Positions 2,510-61,818 of a stretch of DNA of 64,000 bases are shown piece by piece. The notes beneath the pieces are model-generated. The model was not told the origin of the DNA and searched no databases. It was given only the letters and a program-made list of their open reading frames with translations. This DNA comes from Paracoccus sp. PAMC 22219 (GTDB taxonomy: Bacteria > Pseudomonadota > Alphaproteobacteria > Rhodobacterales > Rhodobacteraceae). The first letter of the stretch is position 1. Every line of letters starts with the position of its first letter. The translations under genes and the position numbers were made by a program. The DNA lies in the NCBI RefSeq assembly GCF_000787695.1, contig NZ_BBPH01000022.1, positions 1-64,000 on the forward strand, in the 5' to 3' direction.

Positions 2510-3658
2510 ATGGCTGCTAAACCGACCGCGTGCCTGGCGCTTGCCGACGGGACCGTCTTCTATGGCATGGGCTTCGGCGCCCCCGGCGAAGTCGTCGCCG
2601 AACTGGTCTTCAACACCGCGATGACCGGCTACCAGGAGATCATGACTGATCCCTCCTATGCCAGCCAGATCGTGACCTTCACCTTCCCCCATATCGGCAA
2701 CACCGGCGTCACCGAAGAGGATGACGAGGCACCCGACCCGGTCGCCAGCGGCATCGTCGTGCGGTGGGACCCGACAGAGCCGTCGAACTGGCGCAGCACG
2801 TCGGAACTGACCGACTGGATGGCGCGCCGCGGCCGCATCGGCATCGGCGGCGTCGACACCCGCCGCCTGACCCGCGCGATCCGCCAACAGGGCGCGCCGC
2901 ACGTCGTGCTGGCCCATGACCCCGACGGCAATTTCAACATCGAGGCCATGATCGCCCGCGCCCGCGACTGGCCGGGTCTGGTCGGGCTGGACCTGGCCCG
3001 CGGCGTCAGCTGCGCCCAAAGCTATCGTTGGGACCAGGGCGCATGGGAATGGGGCACGGGCTTTGGCACCGCGCCCGGCGACCGGCCGTTCAAGGTCGTG
3101 GCGCTGGACTACGGCGCGAAACGCAACATCCTGCGCTCGCTTGTGGCGTTCGGGGCCGATGTCACCGTCCTGCCGGCCACCGCCACCGCGGCCGAGGTGA
3201 TGGCGCATGAGCCCGAGGGCGTGTTCCTGTCCAACGGCCCCGGCGATCCGGCCGCGACCGGCGCCTATGCCGTGCCGATGATTCAGGACCTGCTGGGCCG
3301 TGACATGCCGATCTTTGGCATCTGCCTGGGTCACCAGATGCTGGCGCTGGCGCTTGGCGCCAAGACCGTCAAGATGAGCCACGGCCATCACGGCGCGAAC
3401 CATCCCGTGCGCGACGTGGAGACCGGCAAGGTCGAGATCACCTCGATGAACCACGGCTTTGCGGTCGATTCGCAAAGCCTGCCTGTCGGCGTGATCGAGA
3501 CTCATGTCAGCCTGTTCGACGGCAGCAACTGCGGCATCCGCATGCAGGACAAGCCGGTCTTCTCGGTCCAGCACCACCCCGAGGCGTCCCCCGGGCCGCA
3601 GGACAGTCTGTACCTGTTCAAGCGGTTCACCGATTCGATGCGCGCACGCCGCGCCTGA
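2510..3658 (+). CDS. carA: Carbamoyl-phosphate synthase small subunit
   Basis: The glutaminase subunit of carbamoyl-phosphate synthase: it hydrolyses glutamine and passes ammonia to CarB to make carbamoyl phosphate for arginine and pyrimidines. At 382 residues it has family length. The N-terminal CPSase domain contains ADGTVFYGMGFG near residue 12. The C-terminal class I amidotransferase domain has the GP(G)DP motif, the nucleophile Cys in GICLGHQ, and the catalytic His/Glu in HHPEASPGP near the end. carB is not in the window. The start ATG 2510 follows GAGGT at about 7 bases. An inverted repeat at 3671-3702 follows the stop. Confidence 0.97.
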   Translation: MAAKPTACLALADGTVFYGMGFGAPGEVVAELVFNTAMTGYQEIMTDPSYASQIVTFTFPHIGNTGVTEEDDEAPDPVASGIVVRWDPTEPSNWRSTSELTDWMARRGRIGIGGVDTRRLTRAIRQQGAPHVVLAHDPDGNFNIEAMIARARDWPGLVGLDLARGVSCAQSYRWDQGAWEWGTGFGTAPGDRPFKVVALDYGAKRNILRSLVAFGADVTVLPATATAAEVMAHEPEGVFLSNGPGDPAATGAYAVPMIQDLLGRDMPIFGICLGHQMLALALGAKTVKMSHGHHGANHPVRDVETGKVEITSMNHGFAVDSQSLPVGVIETHVSLFDGSNCGIRMQDKPVFSVQHHPEASPGPQDSLYLFKRFTDSMRARRA

Positions 3659-3670
3659 CGGTGAAATGCC

Positions 3671-3702
3671 CCCGTGCGACCAGTTTTTACCGGTCGCACG
3701 GG
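3671..3702 (+). terminator. Hairpin downstream of carA
   Basis: CCCGTGCGACC at 3671-3681 and its exact complement at 3692-3702 enclose a 10-base loop. An 11-bp GC-rich stem placed 13 bases after the carA stop suggests transcription termination, though only a weak T-rich stretch follows. Confidence 0.55.
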
Positions 3703-3707
3703 ATCGC

Positions 3708-3722
3708 TTAATCTTCTGTTAA
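3708..3722 (+). promoter_or_regulatory. CtrA binding box candidate (TTAA-N7-TTAA)
   Basis: TTAATCTTCTGTTAA is a perfect match to the TTAA-N7-TTAA consensus bound by the alphaproteobacterial cell-cycle regulator CtrA. It sits 43 bases upstream of the glycosyltransferase ATG and just after the carA hairpin, so it belongs to the downstream gene. Such AT-only tetrads are unusual in DNA this GC-rich. CtrA itself is not in the window. Confidence 0.5.
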
Positions 3723-3765
3723 CGCATGACGTTCCAAGACGGGTCGATCCTGATGGGAAACGACC

Positions 3766-5901
3766 ATGGCGCAGCCTGCCCCCCTGCCCCGGCCTGCCAA
3801 CCTGCCCGATCCGGCGACCGCCGGCAGTGCGGTCCTGTGCGGGCCGACGCTGGCCCCGCGCGACCGTCGGTCGCTTGGGCAGATCCTGCTGGAGGATGGG
3901 GCGGTCGATGCGGGCGACCTGCTCAAGGCGACGGTGATCCAGCAAAGGCTGCGCATTCGGCTGGACCAGGTTCTGCTGGCCCAAGGAATGGTCCAGCCGT
4001 CAGCCCTGGCCCGCGCGCTGTCGCGCCAATGGCGCACCACCGCGATCGACCCCGACGTGACGCCCGCCGATCCGCGGCTGATCGACGATGCGGGCGCCGG
4101 GTTCTGCCTGACGCACGGGCTGCTGCCCTGGCGGCGAATCGGCGGGGTGACCTGGATCGCAACCGCGCGGCCCGATGATTTTGCGGCCGTGCTGCCCCTG
4201 CTGCCGCGCCAGTTCGGCCAAGTCCGCATGCTGCTGTGCAGCGCCGACCAGGCCCAGGGCGGGGTGCTGAATTCGCGCCGCACCCGCCTGATCCGCGAGG
4301 CGGAGACCCGCGTCCCCGCCATCGAAAGCTGCCGCACTCAGAACCAGGCCCGCACCGCACGCCTGGCGATCGCGGCGCTGGCCCTGACCGGGGCGGGGCT
4401 GGTCCTGATTCCGACGGTGATCGTGGGACTGCTGACCTTTTGGGCGGTGCTGACCCTGGTGACGCAGAGCGGGCTGAAGCTGGCCTCGTTCCTGGCGGCG
4501 CGGCGTGCGGTGCGCGAACAGGACGAACATGCGCTGGCCGTTCGGCAGGGGCATTTGGTCCCCCCGCAAATGGAAACCGCGCTGCCGCTGATATCGGTCA
4601 TGGTGCCGCTGTTTCACGAAGACGACGTGGCGGGCAAGCTGGTCGCGCGGCTGGCCCGGTTGGACTATCCCCGAGAGCTGACCGACATCCTGCTGGTGAT
4701 CGAGGCCAGCGACGAGATCACCGAGGCCGCGCTGGACGGCGTGCGCCTGCCGCACTGGATCCGCGTCGTGCGGGTGCCGGACGGGCCGATCAAGACCAAA
4801 CCCCGGGCGCTGAACTATGCGCTGAATTTTTGCCGCGGGCAGATCGTGGGCATCTGGGACGCCGAGGATCGCCCCGACCCCGATCAGCTGCACAAGGTCG
4901 CGCGGCGGTTCCATTTCGCCCCGGCGGACGTCGCCTGCCTGCAGGGGGCGCTGGATTATTACAACCCGCGCACCAATTGGCTGGCACGGTGTTTCACCAT
5001 CGAATACGCAGGCTGGTTCCGCATTCTTTTGCCGGGGGTGGCGCGGCTTGGGCTGATCGTGCCCCTGGGCGGCACCACGTTGTTCTTTCGCCGCGATCTG
5101 CTGGAACAGGTCGGTGCCTGGGACGCGTGGAACGTGACCGAGGATGCCGATCTGGGCGTCCGTCTGGCGCGCCGCGGCTATCGGACAGAGATCATCGAGA
5201 CGACCACCGACGAGGAGGCCAACTGTCGCGCCCTGCCTTGGGTCAAGCAGCGGTCCCGCTGGCTCAAGGGTTACGCGATGACTTGGGCCGTGCACATGCG
5301 CGATCCGGCAGCGCTCTATCGCGATCTGGGGGCGTGGCGGTTCTGGGGCTTTCAGGTCCAGTTCCTGGGCGCGCTGTCGCAATACCTGCTGGCGCCGATC
5401 CTGTGGAGCTTCTGGCTGCTGACCTTTGGCCTGCCGCATCCCCTGCGCGCGCCGCTGGAGACCAGCGTCGGATCCTGGGCGATCGCCGGCCTGTTCGGTC
5501 TGTTCGTCGCCTCCGAGGCGCTGAGCATCTTTGTCGGCATGCGCGCGGTCAGCGGCGCGAAACATCGCCACCTGATGCCGTGGGTTCCGACGCTGCATTT
5601 CTATTACCCGCTTGGCTGCCTGGCGGGATGGAAGGCCATCTACGAAGTCGTGGCCAAGCCCTTTTACTGGGACAAGACCGCCCACGGCCTGTTCGTCGAG
5701 GCCGGTGACGCGCCCGAGATCCCGCTGGCGCCGGGCATGGTGTCGATCCCGGTCCTGGGCCAGATTGGCGGCCGGTCCCTGGCCGAGGTCGCGGCAGACC
5801 TGCAGGCCAGCGCGGGACACGCCCGCGTCGGGCAAATCGATGCCCCGACCGTCGAACCCGAATCCATGCGCTTTCCCCAGGATCGCGCCGCCAGCGGCTA
5901 G
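3766..5901 (+). CDS. MshEN-domain glycosyltransferase family 2 (membrane polysaccharide synthase)
   Basis: A 711-residue processive-type inner-membrane glycosyltransferase. Residues about 34-110 form a GspE/MshE N-terminal-like domain with two copies of the RLGxxLLxxG...LxxAxxxQ pattern, at residues 34 and 64; such MshEN domains bind c-di-GMP in known cases. Two membrane helices (about 200-245) precede a GT2 domain with the expected Asp sites (EASDE near 314, DAED near 365, TEDAD near 458) and QRSRW near 495, the QxxRW motif of cellulose/hyaluronan-type synthases. More helices follow. NfrB of E. coli combines the same domains in the opposite order. The sugar substrate is unknown. A CtrA box precedes the gene; the stop shares CTAG with glnE. 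Confidence 0.85.
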   Translation: MAQPAPLPRPANLPDPATAGSAVLCGPTLAPRDRRSLGQILLEDGAVDAGDLLKATVIQQRLRIRLDQVLLAQGMVQPSALARALSRQWRTTAIDPDVTPADPRLIDDAGAGFCLTHGLLPWRRIGGVTWIATARPDDFAAVLPLLPRQFGQVRMLLCSADQAQGGVLNSRRTRLIREAETRVPAIESCRTQNQARTARLAIAALALTGAGLVLIPTVIVGLLTFWAVLTLVTQSGLKLASFLAARRAVREQDEHALAVRQGHLVPPQMETALPLISVMVPLFHEDDVAGKLVARLARLDYPRELTDILLVIEASDEITEAALDGVRLPHWIRVVRVPDGPIKTKPRALNYALNFCRGQIVGIWDAEDRPDPDQLHKVARRFHFAPADVACLQGALDYYNPRTNWLARCFTIEYAGWFRILLPGVARLGLIVPLGGTTLFFRRDLLEQVGAWDAWNVTEDADLGVRLARRGYRTEIIETTTDEEANCRALPWVKQRSRWLKGYAMTWAVHMRDPAALYRDLGAWRFWGFQVQFLGALSQYLLAPILWSFWLLTFGLPHPLRAPLETSVGSWAIAGLFGLFVASEALSIFVGMRAVSGAKHRHLMPWVPTLHFYYPLGCLAGWKAIYEVVAKPFYWDKTAHGLFVEAGDAPEIPLAPGMVSIPVLGQIGGRSLAEVAADLQASAGHARVGQIDAPTVEPESMRFPQDRAASG

Positions 5902-8697
5902 CCGGGCGGGGTGTCGCCGGACAATCGTTCTTCGACGATGGCCTGCACCGTGTCGAAATCCCGAACCAGACGGTCGCGCAGGGCCTGCGGGCTGTCCGCC
6001 TCGACCTCGCGCAGCAGGAAGTCCTGGCCGCCGCGTCCGATCTCGTCCATGTCCAGCGGCCTGTCGGTCAGCAGGCGGGCGGCGGCATGCACGCGCCACA
6101 ACCCCCGCCAGATCGACGACAGACGGTCCGCCTGTTCCGCGGACAGCAGGCCTGCCCTGCGACCCGCGCGAAGCTGCGCCAGCGTCGACCGCGCCGGATC
6201 GCCCGCCCGCAGCGCACAGCTTTGCGCCAGCAGGTCGATGTCCTGCAGCCGCCCGGCCCCCTGACGCACGTCGAAGACCCCGCCCGGCGGCTTGGCCGCG
6301 AACAGGCGGTCGCGCATCTGGCCGGTGTCGGGCAGCACCCGGGGGTCGGTGCCGCGTTCGGTCAGGACCTGCAGACGCAGGGCCTCGATCTGCTGGCACA
6401 GCGTCTCCGCGTCGGGACCGATCTGCGCCACGCAGCGGGCACGGGTCAGGGCCAGATGCTCCCACGTCCAGGCCTCGGTCATCTGATAGGTGCCGAAACT
6501 GTCGATGGAGGTCGCCACCGGCCCCTGCCGCCCCGACGGGCGCAGCCGCATGTCGACCTCGTAGAGGCGGCCTTCGGCGGTGGGGGCGGACAGGGCGGTG
6601 ACCATCGCCTGTGTCAGGCGCGCGTAATAGGGGCGCGCGGCCAGCGGGCGCGGCCCATCGGATGCGTCGACCCCGTCCGCGTCATAGATCACGATCAGGT
6701 CCAGATCCGACCCCGCGTTCAGCACCCGCGCACCCAGAGAGCCCATGCCCACGACCACCGCGCCCCGCCCCGGCGGCGGGCCGTGGCGGCGGGCGAAATC
6801 GGCGGCCGTCACCGGCAGCAGCGCCGCCACGCAGCGCCGGCAAGGTCGGCGTATTGCACCGCGGCCTCGTCCGCGCCGATCAGGCCGCGCAGGTGATGGA
6901 CGCCGATGCGGAACTGCCATTCATGCGCCCACCGGCGCGCCGCATCCAGCGCGCGTTCATAACCGCCGCCGGGCTGGGTCAGCGCGCGCTGCAGGACCGC
7001 GTCCAGCTCCGCCACCAGACCCGCCTCGGCGGGCCATGGCGCGAAGAAGCTGCCCGCCAGCACGCCGTCCAGGACCGACGGGTGGCGCGCCAGGTAGGCG
7101 GCCAGCGCGGGCGCGGTGCCGCAGATGTCGACGATCAGGTCGATCAGCTGGGGATTGGCCTCGAACAGGGAAAACAGCTGGACCCCCGCAGGCAGCCCGG
7201 ACAGGACGCTGTCGAACCGGGCCAGCGCCTCGGCCGGGTGGCCGGCGCGGGCCATGCGCGACAGAAGCGGCGCCTCGATCCGGTGAAAGATCTGGCGCGC
7301 GCGGTCGGACCGCAGCGCCGGATAGGTCTGCCAGCCTGGATCACCGCCCGCGATTCGTCGGACAGGTCGGGAACGGTGTCGGTCGGCTCGGACGGGGCGA
7401 AGAAACGCTCGGTCAGCGCATGCACGCGTTCCAACCGCGATTTCAGTCGGGCGCACCACGCATCGGCATCGGGCTCGCCCATCAGGGCGGCGATGGTGGT
7501 CAGGCCCTGATCGTCCTTGGGCAGGCTGTGGGTCTGGGCGTCATTCACCATCTGGATACGGTGTTCGATGTCGCGATGTTCGCGGTAATGCGCCGTCAGT
7601 TCGTCGGCGACGTCCCGGGGGATCCAGTTCTTGGCCGCCAGCGCGGCCAGCCCGCCGACCGTGTCGCGGCATTGCAGGTCGCGGTCGCGCCCGCCCGCGA
7701 TCAGCTGACGGGTCTGGGTAAAGAACTCGATCTCGCGGATGCCGCCGCGGCCAAGCTTCAGGTTGTGGCCCGCCACCTCCAGCCGCCCGCCCAGACCCTT
7801 GTGGTCGCGGATGCGCAGCCGCATGTCATGGGCGTCCTGGATGGCCGCGAAATCCAGATGCTTGCGCCAGACAAAGGGACGCAATTCGCGCAGCAGGCGT
7901 TCGCCCGCGGCGATGTCGCCCGCCGCCGCGCGCGCCTTGATGAAGGCCGCGCGTTCCCAGGTCCGCCCCTCGGCCTCGTAATAGGCCAGCGCCGCGGCGG
8001 TCGAGATGCAGACCGGCGTCACTGCCGCATCGGGCCGCAGCCGCAGGTCGGTGCGAAAGACATAGCCGTGGTCGGTCACGTCAGACAGGGTCGCGGCCAT
8101 CCGCCGCGTGGCACGGATCAGGGCGGCGCGGGCCTCCATCTGGTCGGCCTCGGCGTAGGCGGTCTCGTCGAACAGCACGATCAGGTCTATGTCGGAACTG
8201 TAGTTCAGCTCTCGTGCGCCGCCCTTCCCCATCGCCAGCGCGAAGATGCCGCCCGCATCGGCGGTGGTGGCGGGCAGCTTGCCGCGCCGGATCTCGGTCG
8301 CGACATGAACGCGCAGGGCCAGGTCGACGGCGCGGTCGGCCAGGTCGGACAGCGCGCCCGTCACCTGCTCCAGTGACCAGACCCCGCCCAGATCGGCCAG
8401 CGCCGCCAGCAGCGCCACCCGCCGCTTGGCCCGGCGCAAGGCCACGCCAAGCGCGTCCGCGTCCAGCGATTGCAGGCCCTGCGTCTCGCGCGCGACGACA
8501 TCGTCGTGGTCCAGCGCATCGGGCAGCCAGTCGGCCTCGGACCGCAGCAGGCCTGCCAGATAGGGGCTGCTGCCCGCAGTACCCGCGATCAGGTCGCGCA
8601 TCCGGTCGGACAGGGTCGGGAACAGCGCCGCGACATCCGCCCCACGGGCGGCGTCGACGGGCAGCGGAAGGCGGGTGATGCGGGTCTGAAAGCTCAT
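5898..8697 (-). pseudogene. glnE: Glutamine synthetase adenylyltransferase/adenylyl-removase, two frameshifts as sequenced
   Basis: GlnE adenylylates and deadenylylates glutamine synthetase to tune nitrogen assimilation. Three abutting frames carry one protein: residues from 8697 (MSFQTRITRLPLP) to about 7335, then to about 6835, then to the stop at 5898. Both breaks are repaired by adding one base, giving about 933 residues, which is family length. The N-terminal nucleotidyltransferase site (GKGGARELNYSSDIDL) and the C-terminal one (GMGSLGARVLNAGSDLDL) are both present. Conserved sequence continues without loss across each break, so I favour sequencing deletions over real decay. Start 8697 is the ATG directly before conserved sequence. 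Its stop overlaps the glycosyltransferase stop. Confidence 0.85.
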
Positions 8698-8904
8698 GCG
8701 CGCCACCTTGCCGGGGCCGCCCCGGCCCGTCAACGCAACGCGCGGTAAACCATGTCGGACGGAACCGTCCGGCGCGCTGCTTTCCCCGCTTGGCCTGCCG
8801 GGAAATCGTTGCTAGGCTTTCGCGCATACCAACCCGCGATATGGAACCTTCCGCGCCCGCATGATCAGTCGCGACCTGACCAGATGCTGCAAGGGGCGCA
8901 CCTG

Positions 8905-9842: not shown

Positions 9843-9904
9843 GCGCCGACGCGGGGCTGCAAATGGTGCGCCTTGCAGGTGTTTTTGATGGATGGAGCAA
9901 GACG

Positions 9905-11658
9905 ATGTCCCGAACAATGACGGGTGCGAGAATGGTGGTCGAGGCGCTGCGCGATCAGGGCGTCGATACCGTATTCGGCTATCCGGGCGGGGCCGTGCTA
10001 CCCATCTATGACGAGATCTTTCAGCAGAACGACATCACCCATGTCCTGGTCCGCCACGAACAGGGCGCCGTCCACATGGCCGAGGGCTATGCCCGCGCCA
10101 CGGGCAAGCCGGGCGTCGTGCTGGTCACCTCGGGTCCGGGGGCCACGAACGCGGTGACCGGCCTGACCGATGCGCTGCTGGATTCGATCCCGCTGGTCGT
10201 GCTGTCGGGCCAGGTCCCGACCTTCATGATCGGCACCGACGGGTTCCAGGAGGCCGACACGGTCGGCATCACCCGCCCCTGCACCAAGCACAACTGGCTG
10301 GTCAAGGACACGGACAAGCTGGCCGCGACGATCCACAAGGGCTTTCACGTCGCCACCTCCGGTCGCCCCGGTCCGGTCCTGATCGACATTCCCAAGGATG
10401 TGCAGTTCGCGACCGGCACCTATGTCGGACCCAAGCAGGTCGACAATGGCCGCTACAACCCGACGAAAAAGGGCGATCTGGGCGCGATCACGCGTCTGGT
10501 CGAGCTGATGGAACAGGCCGAACGCCCGATCCTGTATACCGGTGGCGGTGTCATCAACTCCGGTCCCGGCGCCAGCCAGCTGCTGCGCGAACTGGCCGAG
10601 GCAACGGGATTCCCCGTGACCTCGACCCTGATGGGGTTGGGCTGCTATCCGGCGTCGGGCGACAAGTGGCTGGGCATGCTGGGCATGCACGGCACCTATG
10701 AGGCCAACCTGGCGATGCACGGCTGCGATCTGATGATCAACATCGGCGCGCGCTTTGACGACCGGATCACCGGGCGGATCGCGGATTTCAGCCCCGGCTC
10801 GGTCAAGGCGCATATCGATATCGACCCCTCCTCGATCAACAAGGTCGTGCGCGTCGACGTGCCGATCGTCGGCGACGTGGGCCATGTATTGGAGGATCTG
10901 CTGAAGGTCTGGAAGTCGCGCGGCCGCAAGACGAACAGCCCGGCGCTGAAGCAGTGGTGGGGCCAGATCGCCGAATGGCGCGCCAAGAAATGCCTGGCCT
11001 ATCGGGGCAGCGACACGATCATCAAGCCGCAGCACGCGCTGGAACGCCTTGAGGCGCTGACCAAGAACCACGACCGCTATATCACCACCGAGGTCGGCCA
11101 GCATCAGATGTGGGCCGCACAGTATCTGGGCTTCGAAGGACCGAACCGCTGGATGACATCGGGCGGTCTGGGCACGATGGGTTATGGCCTGCCGGCGTCG
11201 ATCGGCGTGCAGATGGCGCACCCCGAGGCGCTGGTCATCAACGTCGCGGGCGATGCCAGCTGGCTGATGAACATGCAGGAGATGGGCACCGCGGTGCAGT
11301 TCCGCCTGCCGGTCAAGCAGTTCATCCTGAACAACGAACGCTTGGCATGGTGCGCCAATGGCAGCAGCTGCTGCATGGCGAACGTTACAGCCAGTCCTGG
11401 TCTGACAGCTTGCCCGATTTCGTCAAGTTGGCCGAGGCATTCGGCTGCAAGGGCGCGCAGGTGCGCGACCCCAAGGATCTGGATGCCGCGATCCAGCAGA
11501 TGATCGACTATGACGGTCCCTTCATCCTGGACGTGCTGGTCGAGAAGCACGAGAACTGCTTCCCGATGATCCCTTCGGGCAAGCCGCATAACGAGATGCT
11601 GCTGGGCGAGGCCGAGACCCTGGGCGTGATCGAATCCGAAGGCGCGGTGCTGGTCTGA
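9905..11658 (+). pseudogene. ilvB: Acetolactate synthase large subunit, frameshifted as sequenced
   Basis: The ThDP- and FAD-dependent catalytic subunit that condenses pyruvate into acetolactate (or acetohydroxybutyrate) for valine, leucine and isoleucine. The start [10 protein letters not shown] at 9905 matches family N-termini; [16 protein letters not shown] and the catalytic Glu region [16 protein letters not shown] are intact, and the ThDP motif [12 protein letters not shown] is present. At 11341-11346 the frame breaks: NNERL is followed in one frame by AWCAN and in the next by the expected [16 protein letters not shown]. One missing G in the TTGG run restores 584 residues. Because ilvN follows intact 25 bases later, I read this as a probable sequencing deletion. 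Confidence 0.9.
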
Positions 11659-58029: not shown

Positions 58030-59010
58030 CTAGCCCGCCCTGGCATCCCCGACAGAAGGCGCGTCGACCACACCATCCATGCGCAGCGGGTGGTCGACCG
58101 CCATCACCTGCCCGCTGACCCGGTTCCGCCCGGCCAGCTTGCTGCGATACAGCATCCTGTCGGCCCCGGTCAGCCAGAAGGCGTTGTCGCTGCCCATGTC
58201 GCAGCGCCCCGACGCCACGCCAATGCTGATCGTCACCACCTGCCCCACCTGCGACGCGCGGTGCGGGATGGCCAGCGCCTCGACCCCGGCGCGCATCGTC
58301 TCGGCCAGGTGCAGGGCGCCGTCCAGGTCGGTGCCGGGCAGGATGCAGGCGAATTCCTCGCCGCCGTAGCGGGCGCACAGGTCGCCCGACCGGCGGATCG
58401 CCTGCGCCAGCGCCTGTGACACGGCCTTCAGGCAGATGTCCCCCTCGGGGTGGCCATAGCTGTCGTTGAAGCCCTTGAAATGGTCGATGTCCAGCATCAG
58501 CACCGCGATCAGCCCGCCGTCGCGCGCCTGCCGGTGCAGTTCCGCCTGCAGGCGGCGTTCCAGCATGCGCCGATTGGCCAGCCCGGTCAGCGGATCGCGT
58601 AGCGCCTGTTCGGTCAGCTGATCGCGCATCCGTTTCATTTGGACATGGTTGCGCACCCGCCGCTGCAATGCCGCCGGACGGATCGGCTTGGTGACATAGT
58701 CGATGGCACCGACCGCCAGCCCGCGCAGTTCGGCCTCGTCATCGCCCAGGGCGGTGGCAAAGATCACCGGAATGTCGCTCAGCATCGGGTCGGCCTTGAA
58801 GATGCGGCACAGCTGATAGCCGTCCATGCCGGGCATCACCACGTCCAGCAGGATCAGGTCCGGCCGGCTTTCGCGTGCCACCTGCACGGCCTGTTCGCCG
58901 GACAGGGCAAAGCAGATCTCGTATTCATCCTCCAGCACGGCGGTGACGATCTCGATGTTGGCGGGTTCGTCGTCGATCACAAGGATGACGGGGCGGTTGT
59001 CCATTTTCAT
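58030..59010 (-). CDS. Diguanylate cyclase response regulator (REC-GGDEF, PleD-like)
   Basis: A 326-residue cytosolic protein. Receiver domain residues about 8-125 with acidic DDE pair, phospho-acceptor Asp in LILLDVVMPGMDG near residue 56 and Lys in VTKPIR. GGDEF domain about 130-305 with the active-site GGEEF in CARYGGEEFACILPG near residue 215; an upstream RxxD inhibitory site reads RSGD. It makes c-di-GMP when phosphorylated. It overlaps or abuts the Hpt gene (59007) and is the last gene of the kinase operon. ATG 59004 is an alternative start. Confidence 0.92.
   Translation of the reverse strand: MKMDNRPVILVIDDEPANIEIVTAVLEDEYEICFALSGEQAVQVARESRPDLILLDVVMPGMDGYQLCRIFKADPMLSDIPVIFATALGDDEAELRGLAVGAIDYVTKPIRPAALQRRVRNHVQMKRMRDQLTEQALRDPLTGLANRRMLERRLQAELHRQARDGGLIAVLMLDIDHFKGFNDSYGHPEGDICLKAVSQALAQAIRRSGDLCARYGGEEFACILPGTDLDGALHLAETMRAGVEALAIPHRASQVGQVVTISIGVASGRCDMGSDNAFWLTGADRMLYRSKLAGRNRVSGQVMAVDHPLRMDGVVDAPSVGDARAG

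Positions 59011-59570: not shown

Positions 59571-61818
<2,248 letters not shown>

Follow-up and report, generated by a model that had tools for sequence, protein, structure and literature searches.

Introduction

Which signals control a polysaccharide synthase gene that has a CtrA-type box in front of it and a candidate nucleotide-sensing domain at the N terminus of its product? The question is raised by a 64,000-nucleotide stretch of Paracoccus sp. PAMC 22219 DNA (NZ_BBPH01000022.1, positions 1 to 64,000; the window), in which an open reading frame (ORF) at 3766-5901 joins a predicted MshEN domain to a glycosyltransferase of family 2 (GT2) and is preceded by the full CtrA pattern TTAA-N7-TTAA. 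The initial annotation had read this locus as a surface polysaccharide gated by cyclic diguanylate (c-di-GMP) and by CtrA, possibly in an undescribed arrangement. We propose, with a probability of about 0.72, that the gene encodes a vertically inherited stand-alone synthase belonging to the CtrA regulon, for which gating by c-di-GMP is probable as the ancestral state and doubtful locally.

A CtrA-type site is conserved in front of the synthase gene

The sequence TTAATCTTCTGTTAA at 3708-3722 is the sole TTAA-N7-TTAA of the 64-kb window; it ends 43 bp before the synthase ATG, as first described, and its first T lies 58 bp from that codon. The pattern did not occur in 100 dinucleotide shuffles of the window. 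Searching 198 Rhodobacteraceae genomes for synthase homologues (E <= 1e-30) returned matches in 177 of them, including 161 of the 174 of high quality; 167 of the positive genomes carry a single match and the other 10 carry two. A perfect box was found upstream of the gene in 62 of 70 loci (set 1) and in 73 of 80 named loci (set 2), two sets that share some genomes and are not independent, and these scans were anchored on the protein alignment rather than on chosen starts. The box lies within 150 bp of the chosen start in 60/68 and 71/80 loci. Site density in the 150 bp before the start is 6.6-6.8 per kb as compared to 0.0027-0.0028 per kb elsewhere in the same loci, that is, the pattern is about 2,300-2,500-fold rarer elsewhere than before the start. 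The logo of 60 loci reads TTAAC-N6-TTAACC, and the first T of the box is 55-66 bp from the start codon in 40 of these 60, usually about 60 bp, with the reservation that wherever a box was found the first start after it was taken, which biases toward short distances. Taken together, the shuffles, the conservation in both sets and the start-proximal density lead us to reject a chance origin of the box.

The distant glycosyltransferase of locus L002 was excluded from the comparison. Set 1 yielded 68 proteins from its 70 loci (L020 and L054 were dropped for short frames, and L022 and L067 were without a usable start codon) and set 2 yielded 78 from 80, two loci giving frames that were too short. 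Close homologues at L099 and L147 come from records titled Sphingomonadales and Flavobacteriia metagenome-assembled genomes, which are probably misnamed Rhodobacteraceae bins.

When the 60 promoters are aligned on the box, their composition favours AA at +27/+28 and T at +31/+32 counted from the box start; the AA of the window's own promoter falls one base later. A sigma-70-type consensus scan of positions 3550-3800 returned no promoter. In the CtrA-dependent fla2 promoters of R. sphaeroides the A at -11 is invariant and the leaders are 12-33 bp long (PMC6180460). Given the box-to-start spacing, the AA at +27/+28 and this promoter layout, the box is likely to act as an activating site at -35. 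Judged from the sequence, it is highly likely that the synthase gene is a target of CtrA, and we expect with somewhat less confidence that CtrA activates rather than represses it.

The gene occurs together with ctrA

Over the 198 genomes, the synthase gene and ctrA are found together in 173, the gene without ctrA in 4, ctrA without the gene in 8 and neither in 13 (Fisher p 5e-12, relatedness ignored); the gene is absent from 13 of the 17 genomes that have no full ctrA match. The ctrA scoring covered 13 candidates per genome, and the four genomes with the gene only were rescored in full, upon which two of the four showed a partial ctrA. Presence was called by elimination in one genome for the synthase gene and in 20 for flagellin. 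Alongside the conservation of the box, this co-absence strongly supports, at the level of sequence, the CtrA control that the initial annotation had proposed. The 13 double-negative genomes (e.g. G014, G059, G102, G167) showed few candidate regulators in a first look, even one of them that measures 5.6 Mb.

The source genome (4.01 Mb in 265 contigs) encodes ctrA, with two matches above the family cut-off (405 and 369 bits). The two CtrA-level response regulators are at G000:C182:25532-26203 and G000:C114:6549-7220, other genomes listed with a match having one; the extra regulator is either a second CtrA or carried by a contaminating contig.

A strict link to the flagellum is not supported by the co-occurrence of the gene with flagellin (both in 150 genomes, gene only in 27, flagellin only in 8, neither in 13), as 27 gene-positive genomes have no flagellin match. 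Since GGDEF genes were found in 70 of the 70 genomes tested, c-di-GMP is probably available in the genomes of the family, and loss of c-di-GMP signalling as the cause of the motif decay described below is unsupported.

The MshEN fold is recovered and three of its contact positions are altered

Prediction with AlphaFold2 recovered the whole MshEN fold. Residues 34-171 of the full model align by VIA-align with MshE bound to c-di-GMP (5htl_B) at Z 17.2 and a root-mean-square deviation (rmsd) of 2.4 over 137 residues. When modelled alone, the domain matches MshE at Z 17.1 (rmsd 2.0, 131 residues aligned), c-di-GMP-bound PilF GSPII-B at 15.8, X. citri PilB at 13.5-13.6, two crystal forms of XpsE at 13.2 and 8.6 and PilF GSPII-A at 11.2. 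The Foldseek top 50 of the full model are GT-type entries only, the MshEN match coming from VIA-align and from the separate domain model. Pfam detects MshEN (PF05157) at residues 93-162 with 28.4 bits against a cut-off of 23.1, which is the C-terminal half of the domain only, and the NCBIfam c-di-GMP motif model NF053729 is sub-threshold at residues 37-88 (33.6 vs 38 bits). The domain had been placed at about residues 34-110; the tandem motifs within that span (36-59 and 65-88) stand, but the fold extends over about 34-171. Two motifs of 24 residues are separated by a linker of 5 residues, as in MshE. That one frame joins tandem MshEN motifs to a GT2 enzyme is thus confirmed by Pfam and by the fold comparison, and the presence of the MshEN fold in the synthase is, on the model, almost certain. 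A shared fold is no demonstration of ligand binding.

The alignment behind the full AlphaFold2 model took in 57 of 71 listed homologues together with the window protein, and a second structure alignment took in 43 of 72 and the window protein. Scored against the MshE motif (PMC5013675), the protein keeps 11 of 14 contact positions, but Ser36, Thr56 and Asp67 are altered, and the published relaxed MshEN pattern matches neither half of this protein, with contact positions broken in both. The nearest relative, L091 from P. marcusii, is identical to it at all 14. Among family members the relaxed tandem motif is matched by 10/68 and 16/78, by a regular expression that is strict, rejecting motif I of L042 over a single core residue. 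L042 keeps all 14 contact positions and a perfect box, and contact scores across the 68 proteins span from 14 (L042) down to 3. The key glycine pair is intact in 36 of the 68 proteins and underwent 12 parsimony changes along the GT-domain tree; the box is present in 31 of the 36 that keep the pair and in 29 of the 32 others, and no coupling of the box with the glycine pair is visible on the tree, which offers only 4 supported independent pairs.

The MshE variants G11L and G40I were reported to show no stabilisation by c-di-GMP (PMC5013675), and Ala at the matching glycine of motif II in PilF GSPII-A lowered the affinity 10-30-fold (PMC12002112). Because Ser36, Thr56 and Asp67 are changed and published substitutions of the glycine at the third motif position cripple or abolish binding, tight binding of c-di-GMP by this protein appears unlikely from its sequence. 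Binding somewhere in the family, on the other hand, we regard as fairly likely. The gating by c-di-GMP that was first proposed is thus plausible for the family but doubtful for the protein on which the proposal was made.

The glycosyltransferase part resembles processive synthases

The DAED, TED and QRSRW motifs of the GT2 domain are invariant in 17 aligned sequences, and Kyte-Doolittle windows exceed 1.5 at residues 197-237. In the fold comparison of this part PcManGT is the top match (Z 27.4); BcsA entries reach 24.8 and those of hyaluronan synthase 23.0, and the alignments with BcsA and hyaluronan synthase cover about 350-396 residues, membrane helices included. According to the model, the product of the gene is very probably a GT2 synthase. 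As both its fold and its catalytic motifs point that way, the enzyme is probably a processive, BcsA-like surface polysaccharide synthase, in agreement with the earlier suggestion.

The locus and its neighbours

The frame at 3766-5901 (plus strand) begins with ATG and encodes an intact protein of 711 residues, and its features are collected in Table 1. The nearest named homologue comes from P. marcusii (94% in the best segment). Upstream lies carA at 2510-3658 (TIGR01368, 439 bits vs a cut-off of 307), and directly downstream, on the minus strand, lies a glnE split over three frames. In 76 of 80 loci the synthase gene is preceded by a carA homologue in the same orientation; among the remaining four, one is without upstream sequence. 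Downstream, glnE is found in only 11/80 loci, mostly of Paracoccus. In six other sampled loci the downstream gene, too, is convergent with the synthase gene and encodes a GntR/FCD regulator (5 loci) or a transketolase (1 locus), and genes for a pyrimidine 5'-nucleotidase and a UbiH-type protein are found further downstream in the loci checked. No sign of membership in an exopolysaccharide (EPS) operon was seen: carA lies upstream in 76/80, and no polysaccharide partner was found in the loci checked. As the carA-adjacent position is conserved and no such partner is seen nearby, the synthase gene probably stands as a unit of its own at a conserved location that has been inherited vertically.

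Table 1. Positions of the predicted features of the synthase locus within the window
Feature	Position	Strand	Details
ORF, MshEN-membrane-GT2 polysaccharide synthase (predicted)	3766..5901	+	711 residues; AlphaFold2 mean predicted local distance difference test (pLDDT) 87.9, predicted template modelling score (pTM) 0.86
CtrA-type full site TTAA-N7-TTAA	3708..3722	+	unique in window; perfect site in 62/70 and 73/80 homologous loci
Putative -10, columns +27 to +32 from box start	3735..3740	+	by analogy with 60 aligned promoters
MshEN domain, both subdomains, residues 34-171	3865..4278	+	VIA-align to 5htl_B
MshEN motif I, residues 36-59	3871..3942	+	Ser36 for MshE Arg9, Thr56 for Leu29
MshEN motif II, residues 65-88	3958..4029	+	Asp67 for MshE Gly40
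Predicted membrane helices between sensor and GT domain, about residues 194-260	4345..4545	+	model helices 194-214, 216-260
GT2 catalytic domain, residues 276-501	4591..5268	+	Pfam; DAED 365-368, TED 458-460, QRSRW 495-499
GC-rich hairpin between carA and box	3671..3702	+	11 bp + 2 inner pairs; RNA fold -26.7 kcal/mol, z -5.06

The hairpin between carA and the box is overlapped by one terminator-like match at 3691-3706 and probably ends the carA transcript. It is not a fixed feature of the family, a stem run of at least 8 being found in 29 of 73 loci. The capsule genes rcc01081-01086 of R. capsulatus, which serve the gene transfer agent (GTA), were considered as a possible identity of the synthase; this is unsupported, the two being set apart by description only. 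The capsule genes are reported to form a gene cluster that is absent from one strain (PMC10218006).

Further observations concern other genes of the window. The glnE region (minus strand, 5898-8733) consists of three overlapping frames that match successive model parts (47-469, 518-676 and 679-980). On the plus strand, the gene for acetolactate synthase (9863-11658) is likewise broken, in two frames (model parts 5-488 and 485-595). The frameshifts in both genes are more likely assembly or sequencing errors than marks of pseudogenes. At 58120-58986 on the minus strand there is a receiver-GGDEF protein (492-residue frame), presumably PleD-like, and after its gene a 940-residue frame with receiver-type matches at 59687-60484.

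Proposed control and its alternatives

We propose that phosphorylated CtrA would bind the TTAA-N7-TTAA at -35 and activate transcription, as the site, its position and its conservation suggest. The product, judging by fold and catalytic motifs, would be a membrane-embedded processive GT2 enzyme polymerising a nucleotide-sugar on the cytosolic side and pushing the glycan to the surface through a membrane channel of its own. The N-terminal MshEN would be its cytosolic regulatory part, c-di-GMP docking between the two motifs ancestrally and in members with intact contacts, and in such members CtrA would set the amount of enzyme and c-di-GMP would set whether it runs. Since three contact residues are lost in this Paracoccus lineage, its MshEN is more likely a constitutive or protein-contact module, and control would lie mainly with CtrA.

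It is conceivable that this very protein is c-di-GMP-gated and that both controls are active in the strain, a possibility to which we give little credence. The fold and the motif spacing are right for it, Gln59, Gln88 and five of the six Leu are among the 11 contacts kept, the genome has four GGDEF matches, and the failed regular expression is so strict that it rejects even L042 with its 14/14 contacts; moreover the first motif position is tolerant, K and L binding well in PilF GSPII-B (PMC11731258). Nevertheless, Asp67 stands in for a Gly that contacts guanine through its backbone amide, at the position where MshE G40I was not stabilised and where even Ala cost PilF GSPII-A 10-30-fold (PMC12002112), and the relaxed motif fails at contacts in both halves; the altered letters recur in the nearest relative, L091. 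Total loss in PilF came with a Ser in the same motif, whereas the Ser is here in the other one (PMC12002112). The reverse possibility, that MshEN is throughout the family a docking module for another protein and no nucleotide sensor, like the N-terminal domain of X. citri PilB for PilZ, would explain why the domain mostly persists while contact scores run from 14/14 to 3/14 over 68 proteins with 12 parsimony changes, and X. citri PilB-PilZ is indeed among the fold matches (Z 13.5-13.6). However, the best fold matches are c-di-GMP-bound (Z 17.1 and 15.8), though a fold shows no function, and the relaxed tandem motif is still matched by 10/68 and 16/78 members, with L042 at 14/14, and we consider docking across the whole family unlikely.

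The other two alternatives concern the box and the enzyme. The box could be a repressor site of CtrA or a cell-cycle timing mark in front of a housekeeping envelope glycan, any link to motility or biofilm being incidental. In line with this, 27 genomes with no flagellin match still have the gene, and it follows carA in 76/80 loci, as expected if vertically inherited, with no EPS operon seen. Yet the distance of about 58-60 bp from box to start, together with a possible -10 some 12 bp beyond the box, suits an activator at -35, whereas the repressing half-sites of Caulobacter overlap the -10 (PMC6180460), making this an improbable account. Finally, a non-processive glycosyltransferase that modifies a lipid or a protein, instead of making a polymer, could be argued from the mannosyltransferase PcManGT as top fold match and from the lack of an export partner gene at the locus. 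As the DxD-type, TED and QxxRW motifs are all present and invariant, and BcsA and hyaluronan synthase match over some 350-396 residues, we hold this quite unlikely.

Several observations weigh against the stand-alone, CtrA-controlled synthase with locally doubtful c-di-GMP gating that we favour. The perfect box is missing in 8 of the 70 loci, two of which have TTAACCAT instead, and in 7 of the 80, one of these being cut at a contig edge. In the source genome TTAA-N7-TTAA occurs at 16 places in 4.01 Mb as compared to 10 for a reversed control pattern, and for this reason the isolated site is weak evidence and conservation carries the weight; several of the other boxes examined in that genome precede no clear gene. 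The association with ctrA is uncorrected for relatedness, and the 13 genomes with neither gene may all belong to a single clade, while the two-contig genome G184 (L060) has the gene and a perfect box with no CtrA above the family cut-off. No export partner gene was seen adjoining the synthase at this locus or in the sampled neighbourhoods. As to the doubt about binding, imperfect MshEN motifs can still bind c-di-GMP (Wang et al. 2016, PMC5013675), and total loss of binding in PilF GSPII-A required, in addition to the glycine change, a Ser in the first position of that motif as well as two Leu-to-Ile changes (PMC12002112). The main texts of seven CtrA regulon reports (PMC4046655, PMC7232146, PMC6473078, PMC2877005, PMC12363192, PMC8116508, PMC4158056) do not contain 'glycosyl', and their supplements may list the gene.

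Comparison with known systems and wider distribution

E. coli NfrB is a c-di-GMP-activated GT2 synthase with a C-terminal MshEN, and occasional alphaproteobacterial homologues of it have been noted (PMC8669469). Like NfrB, the Paracoccus synthase has a GT2 domain with DxD, TED and QxxRW motifs joined to MshEN through membrane helices, and its residues 29-252 align to positions 475-699 of the NfrB model (NCBIfam), that is, to the C-terminal end. Unlike in NfrB the order is permuted, with MshEN N-terminal; the NF008411 equivalog score is 45.7 against a cut-off of 1170, the neighbours in the window (where the comparison was made) are carA and an opposite-strand glnE instead of nfrA/ybcH, and a CtrA-type site is present. 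With the N-terminal domain of V. cholerae MshE (5HTL) it shares the fold, the tandem 24-residue motifs and their linker, differing in three contacts (equivalent to R9S, L29T and G40D) and in being attached to a glycosyltransferase and not to an ATPase. The core resembles BcsA in its processive GT2 and membrane fold (Z 17.9-24.8 for the BcsA entries listed, a polyalanine one excepted), unlike which it has no PilZ among its Pfam matches and no adjoining cellulose genes, with identity of 16-18% in the top rows. BgsA of Rhizobiales, a mixed-linkage beta-glucan synthase that responds to c-di-GMP by activation and in which no PilZ-type domain is predictable (PMC5567048), is likewise an alphaproteobacterial GT2 synthase, whereas a recognisable N-terminal MshEN marks the one described here.

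The site itself is the TTAA-N7-TTAA of the Rhodobacterales CtrA regulon, known to comprise flagella, c-di-GMP turnover, GTA and competence (PMC12363192, PMC4046655). Boxes of this kind were also found elsewhere in the source genome, one of them before a GH108 endolysin-type gene and, at locus L079 (contig C139), one 96 bp before a 373-residue protein with a Hint_2 domain. Another precedes a Mg-chelatase/ChlI gene, which we take to be ComM-type, at +56, near the +58 of the synthase. The gene comM is listed among those needed for GTA recipient capability (PMC10218006).

The claim of an undescribed arrangement holds in part. MshEN-glycosyltransferase fusions are already in print (Wang et al. 2016, PMC5013675), as is NfrB, but no description of the N-terminal MshEN-GT order with CtrA control was found in the literature searched. 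Of 385 genomes drawn from across the class, 45 matched the family profile (E <= 1e-60), this family contributing 5. Among 25 loci examined of the 40 non-family matches (L176-L200), a recognisable N-terminal MshEN (at least 8/14 positions) is present in 13 and a perfect full CtrA site in none, hence the domain order is more widespread than the full site. Three of these loci from the alphaproteobacterial family f10 (L181, L184, L186) hold MshEN-GT genes whose start is preceded, at 57-63 bp, by ATGGTTAA, which is TTAACCAT reversed, and to go by this sequence the CtrA wiring may reach beyond the family.

Significance

It is a tentative thought, which we would rate somewhat below even odds, that the family makes a near-universal and overlooked glycan as an output of CtrA, placed ancestrally under a two-key control from which c-di-GMP sensing was lost repeatedly while CtrA was kept. 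A glycan wired to CtrA might then serve the switch between swimming and sticking or the recipient cells of gene transfer agents. The range of MshEN motifs in the family, some intact and some broken, could help to reveal which residues control by c-di-GMP requires and what role the domain has after binding is lost, L042 being the best candidate with intact contacts for binding c-di-GMP. For this group, the literature consulted names motility, gene transfer agents, competence and the turnover of c-di-GMP as core CtrA outputs (PMC12363192, PMC7232146), and a family-wide CtrA site on a polysaccharide synthase would add a surface glycan to the outputs of the CtrA regulon.

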